Shown here: positions 37,831 through 45,992 of the stretch, in pieces | Numbering within the stretch: position 1 is the stretch's first letter | Layout: each line of letters opens with the position of its first letter | Notes under the pieces: generated by a model | What the model was told of the DNA's origin: nothing | What the model saw: the letters and a program-made list of their open reading frames with translations, nothing else | Database searches by the model: none | Made by a program: the position numbers and the translations under genes | Assembly: GCF_030409055.1 (NCBI RefSeq) | Contig: NZ_CP116619.1 | Coordinates: 777,628-841,627, forward strand | Direction of reading: 5' to 3' | DNA: 64,000 nucleotides | From: Trichocoleus desertorum NBK24 | Lineage (GTDB): Bacteria; Cyanobacteriota; Cyanobacteriia; FACHB-46

Positions 37831-39408
37831 TTATGAGGCAGAAGTCGCCAGTTGTTTCTCCGTCGGGGCGATCGGAGCTATCAAAGCTTCCTCTAAGTCA
37901 GCTCGGCCTAGCTTACTTTCGAGAATGCGCATTACCTCTCGACCAAAATCATTGGGATTTTGCTTCCAGGCTTGCAGACAAACCTCACCAAAGAACGAGC
38001 CCATAGGTTCTGGATTCCACAGCAGTTTCTTGGCGGTCCAAGGCATCAAGCTCATGGGGTCGTAACCAGCCTGCAAAATTCCTTTATCTAGAGCGTATTC
38101 TTCCAAATGAGTATGCGGTTGCAGGCCAATAAAGAAGATGGCAGGCTCTACCTTATCTGCGCCGAAGATACTCTCCAATTCCCGGTGATAGGCGATCGTT
38201 TGTCGAATCGTTTCAGGTCGTTCGTCAATTACATTAAACGAATAGTTCACAGAAACGACATCGTTAAAGCCCGCCGCCTTGAGGTCACGGCAGTTTTGCA
38301 GTACTGTTCGCAAGTTGTAGCCCATGCGCATTTTGCGAACTAGCTCCTGAGAACCGCTGGTAATGCCGATCTCAAAGTAATTCATGCCCGTTTTGACCAT
38401 CAGATCGCACAACTGCGGGTTCAGGTTGTCAGCTCGAATGTAAGCAGCCCAATGAACGTCCTGCATGCCCGAATCGACAATCTTTTGTAGCAGCTCGATC
38501 GCGTCATCAATGTATTTGCGGGCAGGAATAAACTGAGCGTCAGTAAACCAAAAGTTGCGAATGCCGCGATCGTAGAGTTGGCGCATTTCAGCCACCACCT
38601 CGTCGGCTGGATTCACCCGGACTTGCTTTCCTTCGACCACGGTATAGACGCAGTAGCAGCAGTTATGAGGGCATCCTCGCTTGGTTTGCACCCCTACATA
38701 AAAGTCACTCTCCTGGAAGTAGTACTCAAATTCGGGCCAGATGCTGTTGATGTAGTCGTAGTTGCAGGCCGTTTTCTGGATTGGTGTGGGCCACTCATGA
38801 ATCAAGCGATCGCGCGGTTTGGCTTCTCCCACGACATAACAGCGCTCATCTCGAAAGTCTTGGCCTCGAAGCAGCTTCTCCAGCAGCGTTTCACCTTCCC
38901 CCACAGACACAATCGTACCTGCGGGCAACTTCTTGCCTAACTGCTCATAAAAGACACTAACTGCTCCCCCACCCACCACGAGGCGAGCTTCAGGATGATA
39001 TTTTTGCGATCGCTTCAAACCACGCTTAATCAAGCCCAAATTACGCCAAAGTTCTGCATAGTAGGCACTGGTAACTCGGAAACCTCCCAAAGCCCCCCGC
39101 AGCTTCACAAAAGGGTTGCGAGCGTAGAAAAACTCAAAGGCATATTGCAGCGGATTGCCACCCCGACCGCCAACAGGCGCGTAAATCTGAATGTCTCGCC
39201 ACGAAAAAACTAGCAACGTCGGTCGAAACTGATCTACACAAGCATCCAATGCGGAAGCAAAATCTAGCGGCGGCACCGTTCCCAAATCAAAAACCCGTTG
39301 TTCTAAGTTGGGAAACAGCTTGTGCAGATGATCGGCTAGATAGACAACTCCTAGAGGAAAAATCGGATTGCAAGGAAGGCGAACGTAGAGAACTCGATGG
39401 TGCATCAC
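37831..39408 (-). CDS. B12-binding-type radical SAM protein, cyanobacterial high-light acclimation type
   Basis: A 525-residue protein. The N-terminal domain (about 1-190) has cobalamin-binding-like features such as NPIFPLGVVYLADHLHKLFP and VVGGGAVSVFYEQLG. The radical SAM domain has RGCPHNCCYC near residue 245 and FWFTDAQFIPARKY in the barrel. I recall a family annotated as photosystem II high light acclimation radical SAM protein with this opening; I have not verified that. The substrate is unknown. It is monocistronic with a 550-bp upstream gap shared with the divergent DUF1830 gene. Confidence 0.82.
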   Translation of the reverse strand: MMHHRVLYVRLPCNPIFPLGVVYLADHLHKLFPNLEQRVFDLGTVPPLDFASALDACVDQFRPTLLVFSWRDIQIYAPVGGRGGNPLQYAFEFFYARNPFVKLRGALGGFRVTSAYYAELWRNLGLIKRGLKRSQKYHPEARLVVGGGAVSVFYEQLGKKLPAGTIVSVGEGETLLEKLLRGQDFRDERCYVVGEAKPRDRLIHEWPTPIQKTACNYDYINSIWPEFEYYFQESDFYVGVQTKRGCPHNCCYCVYTVVEGKQVRVNPADEVVAEMRQLYDRGIRNFWFTDAQFIPARKYIDDAIELLQKIVDSGMQDVHWAAYIRADNLNPQLCDLMVKTGMNYFEIGITSGSQELVRKMRMGYNLRTVLQNCRDLKAAGFNDVVSVNYSFNVIDERPETIRQTIAYHRELESIFGADKVEPAIFFIGLQPHTHLEEYALDKGILQAGYDPMSLMPWTAKKLLWNPEPMGSFFGEVCLQAWKQNPNDFGREVMRILESKLGRADLEEALIAPIAPTEKQLATSAS

Positions 39409-39874: not shown

Positions 39875-39916
39875 GTAGTCATGTTTACAGCTACCGGGGA
39901 TCGAGAGTGTTAGTGT
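39875..39916 (+). promoter_or_regulatory. NtcA-activated-type promoter of the DUF1830 gene
   Basis: GTA-N8-TAC is at 39875-39888 and is followed, after exactly 22 bases, by TAGTGT (39911-39916), which fits TAN3T. This is the canonical arrangement of class II NtcA-activated promoters. The transcript would begin about 35 nt before the ATG. Confidence 0.6.
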
Positions 39917-39958
39917 TCCGAATATAAGTCTACCTAAAGCGTTAAGCTCCTCAAAGTT

Positions 39959-40309
39959 ATGGCTCAACTCCTTGATCCAGTCCCATCTGACCAGCCCGAT
40001 CGGATTTTTTGCTGCTACGTTAATGCCACTAGCCAAATTCAGATTGCTCGGATTACGAACATAGCGAATTGGTATTTTGAGCGGGTCGTGTTTCCAGGCC
40101 AACGGCTACTGTTTGAAGCACTTCCAGAGGCTCACTTAGAGATTCATACAGGCATGATGGCCAGTGCTATCTTATCGGACACGATCCCCTGCGTTCAACT
40201 TTGGATTGAAGCTGAGGTATATCCAAGCATTGACGCAGTGGGTGAGCAGCTTAAAGAAGAGAAAAATGAAGGACTTAGCGTCACAGAATCTTTGGCGGCC
40301 ACAGCTTAA
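39959..40309 (+). CDS. DUF1830 domain-containing protein
   Basis: A 116-residue protein with a near-ideal DUF1830 core: CCYVNATSQIQIARITNI, then WYFERVVFPGQRLLFEA and LEIHTGMMASAILSDTIPC. The family is limited to cyanobacteria and its function is unknown; the domain is small, beta-rich and cytosolic. An NtcA-type promoter lies directly upstream, which suggests control by nitrogen status (inference). The last 25 residues are a charged tail outside the domain. A complete IS66-type element is inserted 67 bp after the stop codon and does not interrupt the gene. Confidence 0.88.
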   Translation: MAQLLDPVPSDQPDRIFCCYVNATSQIQIARITNIANWYFERVVFPGQRLLFEALPEAHLEIHTGMMASAILSDTIPCVQLWIEAEVYPSIDAVGEQLKEEKNEGLSVTESLAATA

Positions 40310-40368
40310 GGTAAATTCAGCCTGAGGAGTGATTGCAGATAAAGCAAGCTGAATTAAACAACCTGAAT

Positions 40369-40376
40369 GAGAAACT
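40369..40376. repeat. Left target site duplication of the IS element
   Basis: GAGAAACT directly precedes the left terminal repeat and is repeated exactly after the right end (41813-41820). Eight bases is the usual duplication length for the IS66 family. Confidence 0.9.
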
Positions 40377-41812
40377 GTAATTGCTCAACTAGGTTGACCT
40401 AAGCACGCCTTTGGTAGAAGATGATAAACTTTTGCCATGAAGGAACTGCCCCCTCTCGCTGGACTGAGTCACGCAGAAAAGGATGCCCTGATTCAAGGGC
40501 TGTGGCAGGAGTTGCAAACGTTGCGCTCAGAGGTCGAAAAGCTGAAGCAAAAACGGGTCAAGAAAACCTCCCGTAATTCAAGTTTGCCTCCTTCTCAGGG
40601 CTTCAAGCCAAATCAGAGGAGGGCTCAGTCCCCTGCCCTCAATGGTGAGGAAACGGGAAGTCACCGTAACGGTGGGCGAGAATTGAGCCAACAACCGGAT
40701 CAAGTCGTCGTTGCCCAAGCCAAGAGTTGTCCCCACTGTGGGGTCGAAGTGGAGCTATCAACACAACGCTTGAGCGGGACTTACGAACGCATTGAATTGC
40801 CGCCGATGACTCCTCACATCACCCGGGTTGAACGTTACGGCGGGACTTGCCAGTGTTGTCAGCAGGCGTATGAAGCGCCTGTTCCAGTCGGTTTGGAGCC
40901 AGGGTCTCCCTTTGGCACCAGTGTCGTGAGTTTAGTGACCTATCTCCGTTACAGCCATGCCATCAGCTATCAACGGCTGAGCCAGCTGATGAGTGAGCTT
41001 TACGGTCTCAGCCTGTCCGAAGGAGCGATTGCCAATCTCCTGCAACGGGTGCGCTCTCAGCTAGAAAACCCGGTGGCCAAGATTGTCGAACGTTTACGCA
41101 GTGCTCGTCTCGTCGGCAGTGATGAGACGGGGGCACGAGTGAAGGGGACCAACCAGTGGGAATGGGTGTTTCAGAACGACCAGGTGTGTTTGCACGTGAT
41201 TCGTCCCAGTCGTGGCAAAACGGTCATTGATACCGTGATGGCGGGGCATCAACCACAGGTTTGGGTGTCTGATTTATTCAGTGCCCAGACCGCCCATCCG
41301 GCGCACGACTGGCAAGTGTGTCTAGCCCATCAACTGCGCGATTGTCAGTATGCCATGGATGCGGGTGATGAGTTGTTTGCGCCCCGGATGAAATGGCTGC
41401 TCCTCAAAGCCATTGCCCTGCAACGGCGACGACACACCCTGGCTGCCTCAACCGTTCAGCAGTATTGCTCTCGATTTCGCGGCTTACTGCGGGAGATCTT
41501 GAATCTGCAACCCAAATCGCTCGAGGGACAGCGGTTGCTCAAACGCTATCAGAAGATTCGGGCTCATCTGTTGCTGTTTTTGACGGATGAGACAATTCCG
41601 TCAACCAATAATGCCAGTGAGCAGGCGTTGCGCTGGAGCGTCGTCTTTCGCAAGGTGACGAACGGATTCCGCTCGGACTGGGGAGCGGAGCTATTCGCTC
41701 AGGTGCGATCGCTTGTCAACACTGCGAAGCGTCAGGGCATTGCTGCCTTTGATGCCATTTCCCGTGCCCTTACCTCACAGCAGACAGATTGGCTACTGGG
41801 TTGAGCAATTAC
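40377..41812 (+). mobile_element. Complete IS66-family insertion sequence (1436 bp)
   Basis: The element begins GTAATTGCTCAAC (40377-40389) and ends with its exact reverse complement (41800-41812). The GTAA end is typical for IS66. It carries a single transposase gene and no accessory tnpA/tnpB (orf1/orf2) genes, as in the ISBst12 subgroup. Perfect inverted repeats and an identical 8-bp target duplication show that it is intact and inserted recently, between the DUF1830 and DUF4079 genes. Confidence 0.93.
40437..41804 (+). CDS. IS66 family transposase
   Basis: The 455-residue transposase has an N-terminal leucine-zipper-like helix (residues 15-45) with the lysine-rich KKTSRNSSLPPSQG segment, a zinc-finger region with CPHCGVEVEL and CQCCQQ cysteine pairs, and the DDE domain: VGSDETGARVKG (first Asp), WVSDLFSAQ (second Asp), and NNASEQALRW (Glu) near residue 395. 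All three catalytic residues are present, so the enzyme is probably active. The stop codon TGA lies within the right terminal inverted repeat, a compact arrangement common in insertion sequences. No frameshift is seen. Confidence 0.95.
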   Translation: MKELPPLAGLSHAEKDALIQGLWQELQTLRSEVEKLKQKRVKKTSRNSSLPPSQGFKPNQRRAQSPALNGEETGSHRNGGRELSQQPDQVVVAQAKSCPHCGVEVELSTQRLSGTYERIELPPMTPHITRVERYGGTCQCCQQAYEAPVPVGLEPGSPFGTSVVSLVTYLRYSHAISYQRLSQLMSELYGLSLSEGAIANLLQRVRSQLENPVAKIVERLRSARLVGSDETGARVKGTNQWEWVFQNDQVCLHVIRPSRGKTVIDTVMAGHQPQVWVSDLFSAQTAHPAHDWQVCLAHQLRDCQYAMDAGDELFAPRMKWLLLKAIALQRRRHTLAASTVQQYCSRFRGLLREILNLQPKSLEGQRLLKRYQKIRAHLLLFLTDETIPSTNNASEQALRWSVVFRKVTNGFRSDWGAELFAQVRSLVNTAKRQGIAAFDAISRALTSQQTDWLLG

Positions 41813-41820
41813 GAGAAACT
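41813..41820. repeat. Right target site duplication of the IS element
   Basis: GAGAAACT is identical to 40369-40376 and follows the right terminal inverted repeat. Removing the element and one copy restores a continuous intergenic region. Confidence 0.9.
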
Positions 41821-41919
41821 TTAGGAATTCCAATCTGTGGAAGTCCCACTTAATACATAGGTTAATTTCGCTGAAATGATGATAATAGGAAGACGAAAGT
41901 CATCAGCCTGTAAATAGTT

Positions 41920-42357
41920 TTGAATCTACCTTCGTTTCTCTGGCTTTGGAGAATTGCTGCCTGGTCAATGGGCTTCTCGCTTTTGGCCTACGTGCTTTTA
42001 GCCATGACTGGCGTCTGGATGTCCCAAGTTCGATCTACGGGCCAACCTCATCCAAACTGGTTGCGATCGCTGCACTACACCATTGGTAGAATTCTTGGTT
42101 TGCTAGTGCTGCTGTTGCTAGCGGTTGGCTTAGTCGGAACTGTAGGACACTACGGCTCTTTGGGCCATTCCAGCCATTTGCCCGCTGGCTTAATCGTGGT
42201 GGCTTTAGTTGCAATTTCTTTCTGGAGCGCCACCCAGATAAACCCTGAACGTAGTTGGGCGCGATCGCTGCACATCAGCACCAACCTAATTCTGTTCTTA
42301 GGGTTTATTTGGGTTTCGGTTACAGGCTGGAACGTAGTACAAAAATATTTACCTTAG
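41920..42357 (+). CDS. DUF4079-like integral membrane protein
   Basis: A 145-residue membrane protein with four predicted helices: about residues 8-30 (IAAWSMGFSLLAYVLLAMTG), 52-72 (IGRILGLLVLLLLAVGLVGTVG), 85-102 and 118-138. Histidines near the helix ends (SLHYTIGRILG, YGSLGHSSHLPAG, SLHISTNL) recall haem-binding cytochrome b561-like four-helix proteins, which is how DUF4079 is usually seen. Haem binding is inferred only. The start is TTG at 41920, with a possible internal ATG at codon 17. The IS element ends 107 bp upstream and may have separated the gene from earlier control sequences. Confidence 0.75.
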   Translation: MNLPSFLWLWRIAAWSMGFSLLAYVLLAMTGVWMSQVRSTGQPHPNWLRSLHYTIGRILGLLVLLLLAVGLVGTVGHYGSLGHSSHLPAGLIVVALVAISFWSATQINPERSWARSLHISTNLILFLGFIWVSVTGWNVVQKYLP

Positions 42358-42414
42358 ATAGAACTCAGGAAAAAACACCAGCCTTAAGTAGTAGGACGTT
42401 AAAGCCGTAACCTT

Positions 42415-42450
42415 CGTAAAAATCCCCCGCTTGGGGGAATGCCATTTACG
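42415..42450. other. Compound stem-loop after the DUF4079 gene
   Basis: An inner stem TCCCCC-GCTT-GGGGGA (42423-42438) is enclosed by CGTAAA (42415-42420) and TTTACG (42445-42450). No T tract follows. It could be a transcript end or a copy of a dispersed GC-rich hairpin. Confidence 0.4.
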
Positions 42451-42506
42451 GAATCTTCAGTAAATATGCTGAATATCTACTGATACGCTGCTCTAAATTT
42501 TCAGCT

Positions 42507-42776
42507 ATGTCTTACCGTCCTGTCTCCCGTGGGTTCGTGGTAATCGATCCAAATGGAATGCCTCTGCTAGAAGCATCTCAGCAAGGACGTTACGCTTTAG
42601 TGTTTTTAAGCCAAGCAGATGTAATTCGCTATCGCGAGCGAGTGACAGAAGTACGCAAGGCCGCTAAGCAGGATTATGCGATCGCTGCTATGCCCATGCA
42701 TCGAATTCAGCGCTTGCTCAATCAAGAAGAAGTAGGCTTCTGCGTCATCCAAAATTGGGATGCAGTTGCCGCTTAA
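42507..42776 (+). CDS. Small conserved hypothetical protein
   Basis: An 89-residue soluble protein with a mixed alpha/beta pattern: a first hairpin RGFVVIDPNGMPLLEASQQG, then ALVFLSQADVIRYRERVTEV, and a final strand VGFCVIQNWDAVAA. It has no signal peptide, membrane segment or known catalytic motif. I do not recognise a named family. The domain-like pattern and good codon use support a real gene. The 3' end faces the small STAS gene convergently, with 42 bp between them. Confidence 0.65.
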   Translation: MSYRPVSRGFVVIDPNGMPLLEASQQGRYALVFLSQADVIRYRERVTEVRKAAKQDYAIAAMPMHRIQRLLNQEEVGFCVIQNWDAVAA

Positions 42777-42818
42777 TGGGTTAGAGTTGCTTGCTCGGAA
42801 TTACTTGCCCAGAAGCCC

Positions 42819-43109
42819 TTACTTCTGTTTGAAGTGTTGTAAAACTCCTGAAATCTCTAAAATTACTTTGACCTGTGACTTCACGCCTTGCAGAGCGAAC
42901 TTAGCCCCTCTTTGGCGAGACTTCATGAGACCCTCTAGAATCACCCTGGTTCCGTCTGGATCAACAAACTGGGTTGCACTCAAATCAAGCACAACGCCTC
43001 CACCTGCTTGAATCTTTGCTTCCAGATCTTGGGCTAAAAACGTAGCGGTGCAGCAGTCAATCCGCTTCGGAGCACGAACAATTACAGGAACGGTTGCAGA
43101 GTTGGACAT
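42819..43109 (-). CDS. STAS domain protein lacking the phosphorylatable serine
   Basis: A 96-residue STAS-like domain (VIVRAPKRIDCCTATFLAQDL, cut for length; then GGVVLDLSATQFVDPDGTRVIL). Where antagonist proteins of the SpoIIAA/RsbV group have an Asp-Ser-x-Gly turn, this one has Asp-Pro-Asp-Gly, so it has no serine to phosphorylate and may act as a constitutive form or in another role. The ATG is preceded by GAGGTG seven bases upstream. It is the second STAS protein of the window (the other is at 31977-32321) and shares the same overall length; no kinase partner is adjacent. Confidence 0.8.
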   Translation of the reverse strand: MSNSATVPVIVRAPKRIDCCTATFLAQDLEAKIQAGGGVVLDLSATQFVDPDGTRVILEGLMKSRQRGAKFALQGVKSQVKVILEISGVLQHFKQK

Positions 43110-43372
43110 AGGACATCACCTCGTAGTCCTATCTAACCGCTATGGGCAGTTAACGCACATCCGTAAGAATCGGTTTGTATTCTAGGATACTCTTGGCCTC
43201 CTCCGTGTGATTGCGGCTGTTCTGTAACAGCTCAAGTTACATTTGAGGATGAGATAGCCTTCGAACTTTGCGTTTGAGCTTCACAAAATTGGCATATTCT
43301 GCACAGCGCAACAGCAAGAGTTAGCCTACAGTTGAGAAAGAGTATTCTTAAGAGCGATCGCGAGATTAAACT

Positions 43373-44017
43373 GTGTCTTCAGAATCCCCTACGCCTCTTG
43401 ATTTAGCCTCACCTTCTGTAGCATCACCTACCACATCATCGTCTGCAACCCCAAGCCAGTCTCCAGAACTAGCTAGCTTTGGCATCTCACCCTTGATCCG
43501 TCTGACCCTCCTAGGACTCTACGCAGCTTTAACGGTACCGTTGCCTTTTTTGACTCAAGTGACCAGTGCTCCTGTGCCCCCTGGGTGGCTTTGGATTGGC
43601 ATCACCCTTGGCGCGATCGCCCTTTACGCCGCCTTGAGTGAGCGGGTGGTATTAGACCAAGAGGGAATTCAAGTAACCTACCCCCGTTGGGTGCCTGGAT
43701 GGTTGCGGCGAGGTTGGGTACTACCGTGGAAAGAAGTTCAAGCTCTGAAGCCACGCTCTACTGGACAAGGAGGCTTGGTTTACTACTTCTTAAGTAAATC
43801 TGGCAAAGCTTACTTACTGCCCATGCGCGTCTCTAGATTTGCCAAGTTAGTGCAACAGGTGCAACAACAAACAGGCATTGATACAACCGATGTGCGGCCT
43901 CTGGCTCAACCCTGGATGTACTTGATCTTGCTAGGGTTGACGCTCATGTTATTAGCAGTAGACAGTTGGACGATTTGGACAGTTTGGACACAGGGATACC
44001 CCGCTCCCTTAAACTAA
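43373..44017 (+). CDS. Membrane protein with cytosolic PH-like middle domain
   Basis: A 214-residue protein from a GTG start. A serine/proline-rich N terminus (about 35 residues) is followed by two membrane helices (41-60 and 71-88), a soluble stretch (90-165; VVLDQEGIQVTYPRWVPGWL, WVLPWKEVQALKPRSTGQGG, YLLPMRVSRFAKLVQQVQQQ) resembling bacterial PH-like domains, and a last membrane helix (180-204). I do not know a name for it. It ends 11 bp before an ABC transporter ATPase gene on the same strand, so the two are probably co-transcribed; it does not look like an ABC permease. Confidence 0.7.
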   Translation: MSSESPTPLDLASPSVASPTTSSSATPSQSPELASFGISPLIRLTLLGLYAALTVPLPFLTQVTSAPVPPGWLWIGITLGAIALYAALSERVVLDQEGIQVTYPRWVPGWLRRGWVLPWKEVQALKPRSTGQGGLVYYFLSKSGKAYLLPMRVSRFAKLVQQVQQQTGIDTTDVRPLAQPWMYLILLGLTLMLLAVDSWTIWTVWTQGYPAPLN

Positions 44018-44028
44018 GTTGACGGTCT

Positions 44029-44805
44029 GTGGACGCCAAGATAGTACCCCTGCCAATGGAACAAACTGCCCAAATGCATTTGCAGCAGGTTAATTTAGCC
44101 GCTTCAGTGGGAACCCACTATCTCCTGCAAAACATCTCTTTTGAAGTGTTTCAGGGCGATCGCATTGTCCTTGTAGGGCCATCTGGGGCAGGCAAAACCT
44201 CCCTGCTGCGATTACTCAATCGCCTGATCGAACCCACTCAGGGAGCCATCTATCTAGACAACCAAGAAATTCGTCAAATTCCAGTCATTCAGTTGCGGCG
44301 GCAAATTGTTTTAGTGCCTCAAGAATCCAAACTTTTGGGAATGACCGTGGAAGCAGCGCTGACCTATCCCTTGACTCTGCAAGACCTGCCTCGCACCACC
44401 ATTACCCAACGTTTGCAGTACTGGCTAGAACAACTCAACATTCCCTCGGATTGGCTAGACCGCACCGAGTTGCAACTTTCGGTTGGTCAACGGCAAGTAG
44501 TCGCGATCGCACGAGCCTTGATGCTGCAACCCAAGATTCTGCTCCTTGATGAACCCACATCAGCGTTAGATGCAGGGCGAGCCGCGCATGTGCTCAAAGT
44601 GTTAACCGAGGTGGCAGAAAGTGGTCAAATCACACTCTTAATGGTTAATCACCAACTCGATTTGGCTCAACAGTTTTGTACCCGCCTCTTGTATTTACAG
44701 CAAGGCCGACTCCTCAAAAACATGCCAAGCCAAGCCGTAGATTGGGCCGACCTACGCCACACCTTAATTCAAGTAGAAACCGCAGCCGCCCAAGAGTGGA
44801 TGTGA
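44029..44805 (+). CDS. ABC transporter ATP-binding protein (FetA/YbbL-like)
   Basis: A 258-residue ABC ATPase. Walker A GPSGAGKT is at residues 50-57, the Q loop PQES near 97-100, the signature LSVGQ at 150-154, and Walker B ILLLDE at 170-175 followed by PTSALD and the switch histidine in VNHQLD. The short domain and LIEPTQGAIYLDNQEI style resemble the FetA/YbbL and PstB-like group. No FetB-type permease gene is adjacent; upstream is a three-helix membrane protein of unknown type, downstream a convergent regulator only seven bases away. The start may be GTG 44029 or ATG 44056. Confidence 0.88.
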   Translation: MDAKIVPLPMEQTAQMHLQQVNLAASVGTHYLLQNISFEVFQGDRIVLVGPSGAGKTSLLRLLNRLIEPTQGAIYLDNQEIRQIPVIQLRRQIVLVPQESKLLGMTVEAALTYPLTLQDLPRTTITQRLQYWLEQLNIPSDWLDRTELQLSVGQRQVVAIARALMLQPKILLLDEPTSALDAGRAAHVLKVLTEVAESGQITLLMVNHQLDLAQQFCTRLLYLQQGRLLKNMPSQAVDWADLRHTLIQVETAAAQEWM

Positions 44806-44812
44806 GCAAGCG

Positions 44813-45601
44813 TTAAAAATGGCGACCATCACTAGTAGCCATGCGGGAAGCAGCAGGTGCAGGCGGAACCCCTGGCCTCACAGATGAACGCTCCGACCCT
44901 AGCGGAGAGACAGGCGTTAAAACCTCTAAATTAAATCGATAACCAACGTTGCGAACTGTTTGGATTAAGCTGGGTTGGCGAGGATCTAGCTCAATTTTCT
45001 TGCGCAGGGACAGAACATGAGTATCGACGGTTCTAGGGTTATCGATTTCGTCGGGCCAAGCTCGACGTAACAACTCCGAGCGGCTTAAGGGAGAACCGCC
45101 CGCCTGAGCCAGAATGTAGAGCAAACTAAACTCTTGCGGGGTCAGATCAATAAACTCACCTTGGAAACGGGCTCGGCGTTGGACTAAGTCAATCGTGAGG
45201 TCTCCATACTCCAACTGTAGCGGGGCAATCACTGAGCGAGTGCGTCGAGTGAGGGCTTCGACTCTCGCTTGGAACTCCTGCATCCCAAAAGGCTTAGTGA
45301 GATAATCATCAGCCCCCGCTTTTAGGCCTTCTACAATATCTGCTTCTGTATTGCGAGCCGATAGCATCAAAATCATTGACTGCTGCTGTTGCTGCAACCA
45401 GCGACAAAACTCTAATCCATCTCCACCGGACAGGTCAGAGTCAAGAATAACTAAGGTGGGTTGGCGACTTTGGAACACCTCTCTAGCTTGGTGGATATCG
45501 GCTGATTGATGAACCCAGTAACCTGCCTGCTGCAGATGCCAACCGAGCAGCGATCGCAGGTGAGGGTTTCCTTCCACTATTTGAACACAGACAGCTCCCA
45601 C
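44813..45601 (-). CDS. OmpR-family response regulator with altered acidic pocket
   Basis: A 262-residue two-domain regulator. The receiver domain has the phospho-acceptor Asp54 (VILDSD), Ser81 and Lys103 (LTKPFG), but the usual Asp-Asp/Glu pair of the first loop reads VEGN (Glu10-Gly11), so the Mg2+ site is weakened. Residues 132-230 are an OmpR-type winged helix (FIDLTPQEFSLLYILAQAGG, RTVDTHVLSLRKKIE, IQTVRNVGYRF). A disordered tail of about 30 residues follows. No histidine kinase gene is adjacent. The identical-looking IVEGNPHLRSLLGWHLQQ start is familiar from cyanobacterial regulators, but I cannot assign a symbol. Confidence 0.92.
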   Translation of the reverse strand: MGAVCVQIVEGNPHLRSLLGWHLQQAGYWVHQSADIHQAREVFQSRQPTLVILDSDLSGGDGLEFCRWLQQQQQSMILMLSARNTEADIVEGLKAGADDYLTKPFGMQEFQARVEALTRRTRSVIAPLQLEYGDLTIDLVQRRARFQGEFIDLTPQEFSLLYILAQAGGSPLSRSELLRRAWPDEIDNPRTVDTHVLSLRKKIELDPRQPSLIQTVRNVGYRFNLEVLTPVSPLGSERSSVRPGVPPAPAASRMATSDGRHF

Positions 45602-45992
45602 GGAGGCGTACTTTCCTTTGAGTGATTGTCCTCCAACTTAACAGAGCACTTGTCATGGGTTTGTAACCCCTGCTACTCCCCTCATGGCTGCTGAACGAAG
45701 AAATTATAGTATCTGTCCCTGAGGCTATGACTTCTGGCCCATAGGACAGCTACAGGTTAAGGGTAGAATATGAATATCAATATCCCTCGATTCTCAGCTC
45801 ACCCGTAGTAACGGAATTCTTAACACTAACCGGGGTTTACTCGTTGAAGGTGGTGAAGTATTACCAACAGCGCTTGTAGTAGTGAGTCAATTAGGCCCAA
45901 CCTGAGAGCGACATTGCGATCGCCTCAACCCAATCGGCCTAATCTACCTGTCCATACTATTTCCGCAAATTAACGACCTAACCTTAAAAACT
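45602..45992. other. Divergent intergenic region, no gene seen
   Basis: These 391 bases lie between the response regulator start and the 80-aa gene. A short hairpin GGGTT-TGT-AACCC lies near 45657-45669. No coding sequence, RNA gene or clear promoter motif was recognised. Confidence 0.4.

Follow-up and report, generated by a model that had tools for sequence, protein, structure and literature searches.

Class II NtcA-activated promoters, of which glnA, nirA, urtA and ntcB provide canonical examples, are the regulatory type closest to the element described here. The excerpted text of PMC3898017 defines NtcA-activated promoters by a GTA-N8-TAC site near -41.5 together with a TAN3T -10 box. The closest described gene is sll0944 of Synechocystis, whose product (PirC/CfrA) is a PII-binding DUF1830 protein that, in passages of PMC6603209, is under NtcA control and strongly upregulated in nitrogen limitation; excerpts of PMC11142378 report the same control and the same strong rise. 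When freed from PII at high 2-oxoglutarate, PirC/CfrA inhibits phosphoglycerate mutase, according to passages of PMC7760959, PMC11142378, PMC12853614 and PMC13192157, the first of which gives a length of 112 aa for PirC of strain PCC 6803. A second DUF1830 protein, PirN, is described in parts of PMC13205821 as lying in the NtcA-regulated nitrate assimilation operon of Synechocystis.

We propose that positions 39875–39916 of the 64,000-nucleotide stretch analysed here (the window) constitute an NtcA-activated class II promoter of a pirC/cfrA orthologue, whose product would brake the phosphoglycerate mutase iPGAM under nitrogen shortage. Sequence comparison leads us to assign this reading a probability of about 0.92. 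The gene downstream (39959–40309, plus strand) encodes a protein of 116 aa that matches DUF1830 (PF08865) at E 3.2e-36, and a genome search found it to be the only DUF1830 copy. A first-pass annotation had read GTA-N8-TAC, 22 bases and TAN3T at these positions in front of a DUF1830 gene of unknown function, and had suggested a link to nitrogen status. Both the sequence and the domain match bear out the reading of the site, and only the phrase "unknown function" must be given up. The gene type is PirC/CfrA (Sll0944), and because its role and NtcA-dependent induction are already in print in the passages cited above, the nitrogen link is right but not new.

The window protein is the likely orthologue of Sll0944. 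By published descriptions it resembles PirC of PCC 6803 in its DUF1830 domain and its small size, at 116 aa here versus 112 aa there. The Synechocystis salina protein (114 aa) is 61% identical to it over residues 1–114, and the two genes share their promoter type and their divergent neighbour. A poorly resolved tree places both proteins among the site-bearing rows. No NCBIfam profile matched the window protein, and a sequence search of the PDB gave no convincing relative (best E 0.17).

Promoter architecture and conservation

The predicted NtcA site, GTAGTCATGTTTAC (39875–39888, plus strand), is separated by 22 nt from the -10 box TAGTGT (39911–39916), and the ATG at 39959 lies 42 nt further on. 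The site is called from sequence match and conservation, and the -10 box from reading the sequence, a pattern scan and conservation. Within the spacer, GGGATC occupies 39897–39902, 8 nt 3' of the TAC and 8 nt 5' of the -10 box, and a TGT at 39908–39910 forms an extended -10 (TGN). Thus GTA-N8-TAC and TAN3T are both present at class II distance, as in canonical class II NtcA promoters, with the site near a predicted -41.5. Unlike the class II definition, the pirC promoter adds a conserved spacer GGGATC and an invariant TGN, a comparison that glnA, nirA, urtA and ntcB enter by description only. If the site is centred at about -41.5, as the rule in passages of PMC3898017 has it, transcription would start near 39923 (39922–39924, plus strand). 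The place agrees approximately with the start predicted in the first-pass annotation, but its distance of 35 nt from the ATG becomes about 36 nt on recalculation.

Of the 291 genomes of the class, 283 contain DUF1830, and the scored loci were drawn from these. A set of 30 loci was followed by 80 named loci (L031–L110), the best 80 of 530 confirmed and nearest to the window protein, a choice that tilts the sample toward relatives of the window organism. A third set of 49 (L154–L202) came from two groups of 12 and 21 genomes picked for extra or divergent copies; three of these were left out, L176 for lack of a start and L178 and L194 for lack of a profile hit. Removing nine of 156 loci as duplicate upstreams left 147 unique loci. 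The element was searched at -130 to -60 with spacers of 20–24 nt, and identity to the window protein was computed over 85 residues.

Conservation of the element follows similarity of the protein. GTA-N8-TAC occurs within 400 nt upstream in 108 of 110 loci of the first two sets, a count that includes the window locus and inter-set duplicates. The full element precedes 104 of the 112 unique DUF1830 loci with at least 60% identity to the window protein: 10/12 at 80% or more, 90/93 at 70–80% and 4/7 at 60–70%. It precedes 3/10 loci at 50–60% and none of the 25 below 50% (0/7 at 40–50%, 0/18 below 40%). Comparison of orthologous upstream regions had been named beforehand as a test that could refute the nitrogen link; with the site conserved in 104 of 112 close loci and in 0 of 25 distant ones, it supports that link at the level of sequence.

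Throughout the 107 unique site-bearing promoters, the element lies 77–111 nt before the start codon and the spacer to the -10 box is 22 or 23 nt. A coding reading of the conserved stretch was ruled out because coexisting spacers of 22 and 23 nt would break the frame. Eight loci with at least 60% identity lack the exact element (L041, L043, L045, L101, L159, L162, L163 and L173), and all except L173 are a single substitution away from it. Such near misses also arise in shuffled sequence (2.8 per 112) and in 2 of 25 distant loci, so not every one of them is meaningful. L162 (71% identity) and L159 (67%) are two copies in one genome, neither with an exact element. On the tree of 80 chosen rows, which is poorly resolved with many long branches, site presence is clustered (9 changes versus a shuffled mean of 27) without forming a single clade.

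The GGGATC spacer box

The spacer of these promoters is itself conserved. TGN stands directly 5' of TAN3T in all 107 site-bearing promoters, and GGGATC occurs in the spacer of 88 of them, 7–9 nt after the TAC; four control stretches of equal length close by contain it in 1, 4, 3 and 1 of the 107. The box is retained across lineages ranging from Synechocystis and Crocosphaera to cyanobacteria that are Leptolyngbya-like or heterocystous; in one family (f17), three promoters possess the NtcA site together with TGN and lack GGGATC. We tentatively suggest, at somewhat less than even odds, that GGGATC (about -27 to -22), lying between the NtcA site and the extended -10, is an additional control element specific to pirC. 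If so, it would be read by a further factor or by the polymerase itself, setting PirC dosage apart from the remainder of the NtcA regulon. The excerpts of the NtcA and pirC literature that we consulted make no mention of such a box, and we make no claim that it is new to the literature.

Cyanobacterial genomes also carry the HIP1 repeat, GCGATCGC, and the box might be a degenerate, functionless copy of it. The window sequence GGGATCGC differs from HIP1 by a single base, and L041 has an exact GCGATCGC at the box position. We consider this origin unlikely, given that GGGATC is concentrated in the spacer far above the nearby control stretches, at a nearly fixed distance from the site and with information content reaching 1.8 bits in a column.

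In the window genome the composite GTA-N8-TAC-N7-9-GGGATC has a single match, the one at pirC. A scan of 59 genomes gives 64 matches, found in 36 genomes, versus 91 for a back-to-front control; not being in excess, the composite is not a regulon mark and was rejected as a regulon signature. By eye, 17 of the 64 lie just upstream of DUF1830 coordinates, and one further match (G016) has the same sequence as L072, a pirC locus; the remaining 46 enter as a count. A match with a GGGGATC spacer in the window organism's own genome (C1:4461482-4461522, minus strand) was discarded, as no ORF of at least 60 aa starts at promoter distance from it.

Neighbouring genes, DUF1830 paralogues and chance matches

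Across the promoter from pirC lies a divergent radical SAM gene (37831–39408, minus strand; PF04055), and 67 of the 80 named loci likewise have one upstream in this orientation. This recurrent arrangement could mean that the site serves the radical SAM gene, or both genes, and not pirC. We regard this as highly unlikely, because the -10 box is on the pirC side at fixed spacing and, in the window, 467 nt separate the site from the start annotated for the radical SAM gene (39408). Moreover, the 13 loci with no radical SAM match in the flanking DNA examined (L035, L050, L051, L058, L064, L066, L072, L073, L076, L080, L087, L088 and L100) all keep the exact element, which argues that the element travels with pirC.

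Directly 3' of pirC the window has an IS66-type transposase gene (40437–41804, plus strand; PF03050), whereas Synechocystis salina has a starch/glycogen synthase gene (L056, 3426–4913; PF08323). Beyond it, a response regulator gene ends about 4.5 kb downstream of pirC. The IS66-type gene has no match in the examined flanks of the 80 named pirC loci, and the gap between DUF1830 and response regulator coordinates is about 4.6 kb in the window versus 3.2 kb in both congeners. It therefore looks like an insertion in this species. Starch/glycogen synthase matches among the 80 named loci are confined to L056 itself and L062; the position of this gene next to the L056 pirC is fitting for a role in glycogen storage.

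The response regulator gene (44813–45601, minus strand; PF00072, PF00486) is of OmpR type, and 33 nt 5' of its start is the window's second full class II NtcA match (45635–45676, minus strand). A full site lies upstream of this gene in 29 of the 30 best loci from 59 genomes (that of L230 at -175). From its promoter and its domains, the regulator resembles NrrA/Rre37, a name that we apply provisionally. NrrA/Rre37 is reported as an NtcA target in the literature excerpts consulted. In 18 of the 29 promoters TGACA stands exactly 7 nt after the TAC, nearly in the place that GGGATC takes in pirC promoters. In contrast to the pirC promoter, GGGATC is absent from all 26 distinct sequences and TGN is found in 23 of them. 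That this second promoter type has its own spacer motif suggests that NtcA promoters in general may have a further layer of spacer elements particular to each gene.

pirC and the response regulator gene converge in the window (39959–45601), placing two nitrogen-linked carbon regulators side by side. Within flanks of up to 3 kb, the same convergence is seen in 7 of the 80 named loci (L053, L059, L060, L067, L068, L087 and L106). Inspection of coordinates by eye also places a DUF1830 gene within about 6 kb of the response regulator in six genomes; in G000, G001 and G002 this copy is pirC, and in G033, G046 and G051 it is placed by DUF1830 coordinates alone.

PirN offers a different identity for the window gene. 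It shares the DUF1830 domain and the nitrogen setting with PirC, and its operon is itself NtcA-regulated in the account excerpted from PMC13205821. There is nevertheless only a very slight chance that the window gene is PirN, a nitrate/PsbO regulator, or another paralogue, given that it is the single DUF1830 gene of its genome. PirN is marked by a place in the nitrate assimilation cluster and a PirN-like sequence, unlike the window gene, whose neighbours are the radical SAM and IS66-type genes. A likely counterpart of PirN is L172, which is flanked by genes for an ABC transporter ATPase and a molybdopterin oxidoreductase, presumably nrtD and narB. L172 is remote from the window protein: it scores 36 bits with the PirC profile and branches far off. 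Its gene lacks a full NtcA element immediately upstream. We therefore keep the assignment to pirC.

Other DUF1830 copies lack the element as well. It precedes none of the 16 extra copies scored (L162–L175, L177 and L179), so that the site goes with PirC-type DUF1830 genes and not with these. The full site is also absent from the scored loci of families f2 (12 loci from 11 genomes, 11 of them scored), f10, f11, f14, f30 and f33, and from L191 (f26). The absence from these six families implies that this form of NtcA control is not universal. Five genomes (G134, G161, G167, G206 and G221) carry five to nine DUF1830 copies each.

Pattern counts within a single genome say little about function. Two copies of the full pattern fall in the window versus 0.11 expected, a number reached in 0 of 100 shuffles. 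Yet a looser version with spacers of 21–23 nt gives 45 matches in the 5.46-Mb genome versus 100 for a back-to-front control. The GTA-N8-TAC...TAN3T string by itself is thus weak evidence, and we dropped the genome-wide count. Comparison across loci is more telling: exact elements are found in 97 of 101 unique upstreams versus a mean of 0.29 per set of letter shuffles. Mean information content per column is 1.2–1.3 bits for the NtcA site and -10 box, 0.7–1.0 in the spacer and 0.07–0.10 in the flanks, which confines conservation to about 45 bases. Although many of the 45 genome matches may be accidental, a functionless chance match in front of this gene is rejected as next to impossible, since the position of the element is the same in 104 of the 112 close loci, conservation of its flanks is near zero and shuffles yield so few copies.

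Proposed nitrogen control of a brake on carbon breakdown

NtcA-dependent induction is reported for PirC in Synechocystis, and the partners searched for in the window genome (NtcA, PII and iPGAM) are all present. That genome has one NtcA protein above cut-off (TIGR03697, 389.5 bits against a cut-off of 244.95) and one iPGAM that likewise exceeds its cut-off, along with three PII-type proteins that pass theirs, of which one scores strongly. Passages of PMC12077085 link two parts of iPGAM, a loop and a C-terminal tail, to PirC regulation. Judged against that description, the genome's iPGAM has both the cyanobacterial loop and the tail: it carries EGEGLKIPGHGTDVSLR (the EGE....K loop), an insertion relative to structure 1ejj, and its C-terminal tail contains R-x-P.

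These parts suggest a circuit in which NtcA binding, pirC induction and iPGAM inhibition in the window organism are extrapolated from work on Synechocystis. When nitrogen runs short, 2-oxoglutarate would rise, and NtcA, helped by PipX, would bind GTA-N8-TAC and recruit RNA polymerase to the extended -10, with synthesis of PirC as the result. Higher 2-oxoglutarate would also cause PII to release PirC, and free PirC would inhibit iPGAM, keeping fixed carbon in glycogen and away from lower glycolysis. Both the amount and the activity of PirC would thereby increase under nitrogen shortage, and iPGAM would be braked.

What began as a guess about an unnamed gene becomes a firm pirC assignment, with extra and distant DUF1830 copies lacking the element. 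The spacer box offers a precise and inexpensive mutation target in front of a gene that, according to PMC12853614 and PMC13192157, is used in metabolic engineering. pirC is a small brake on carbon breakdown already known to respond to nitrogen, and in the close relatives sampled PirC-type genes are almost always accompanied by the predicted NtcA element, an association of long standing.
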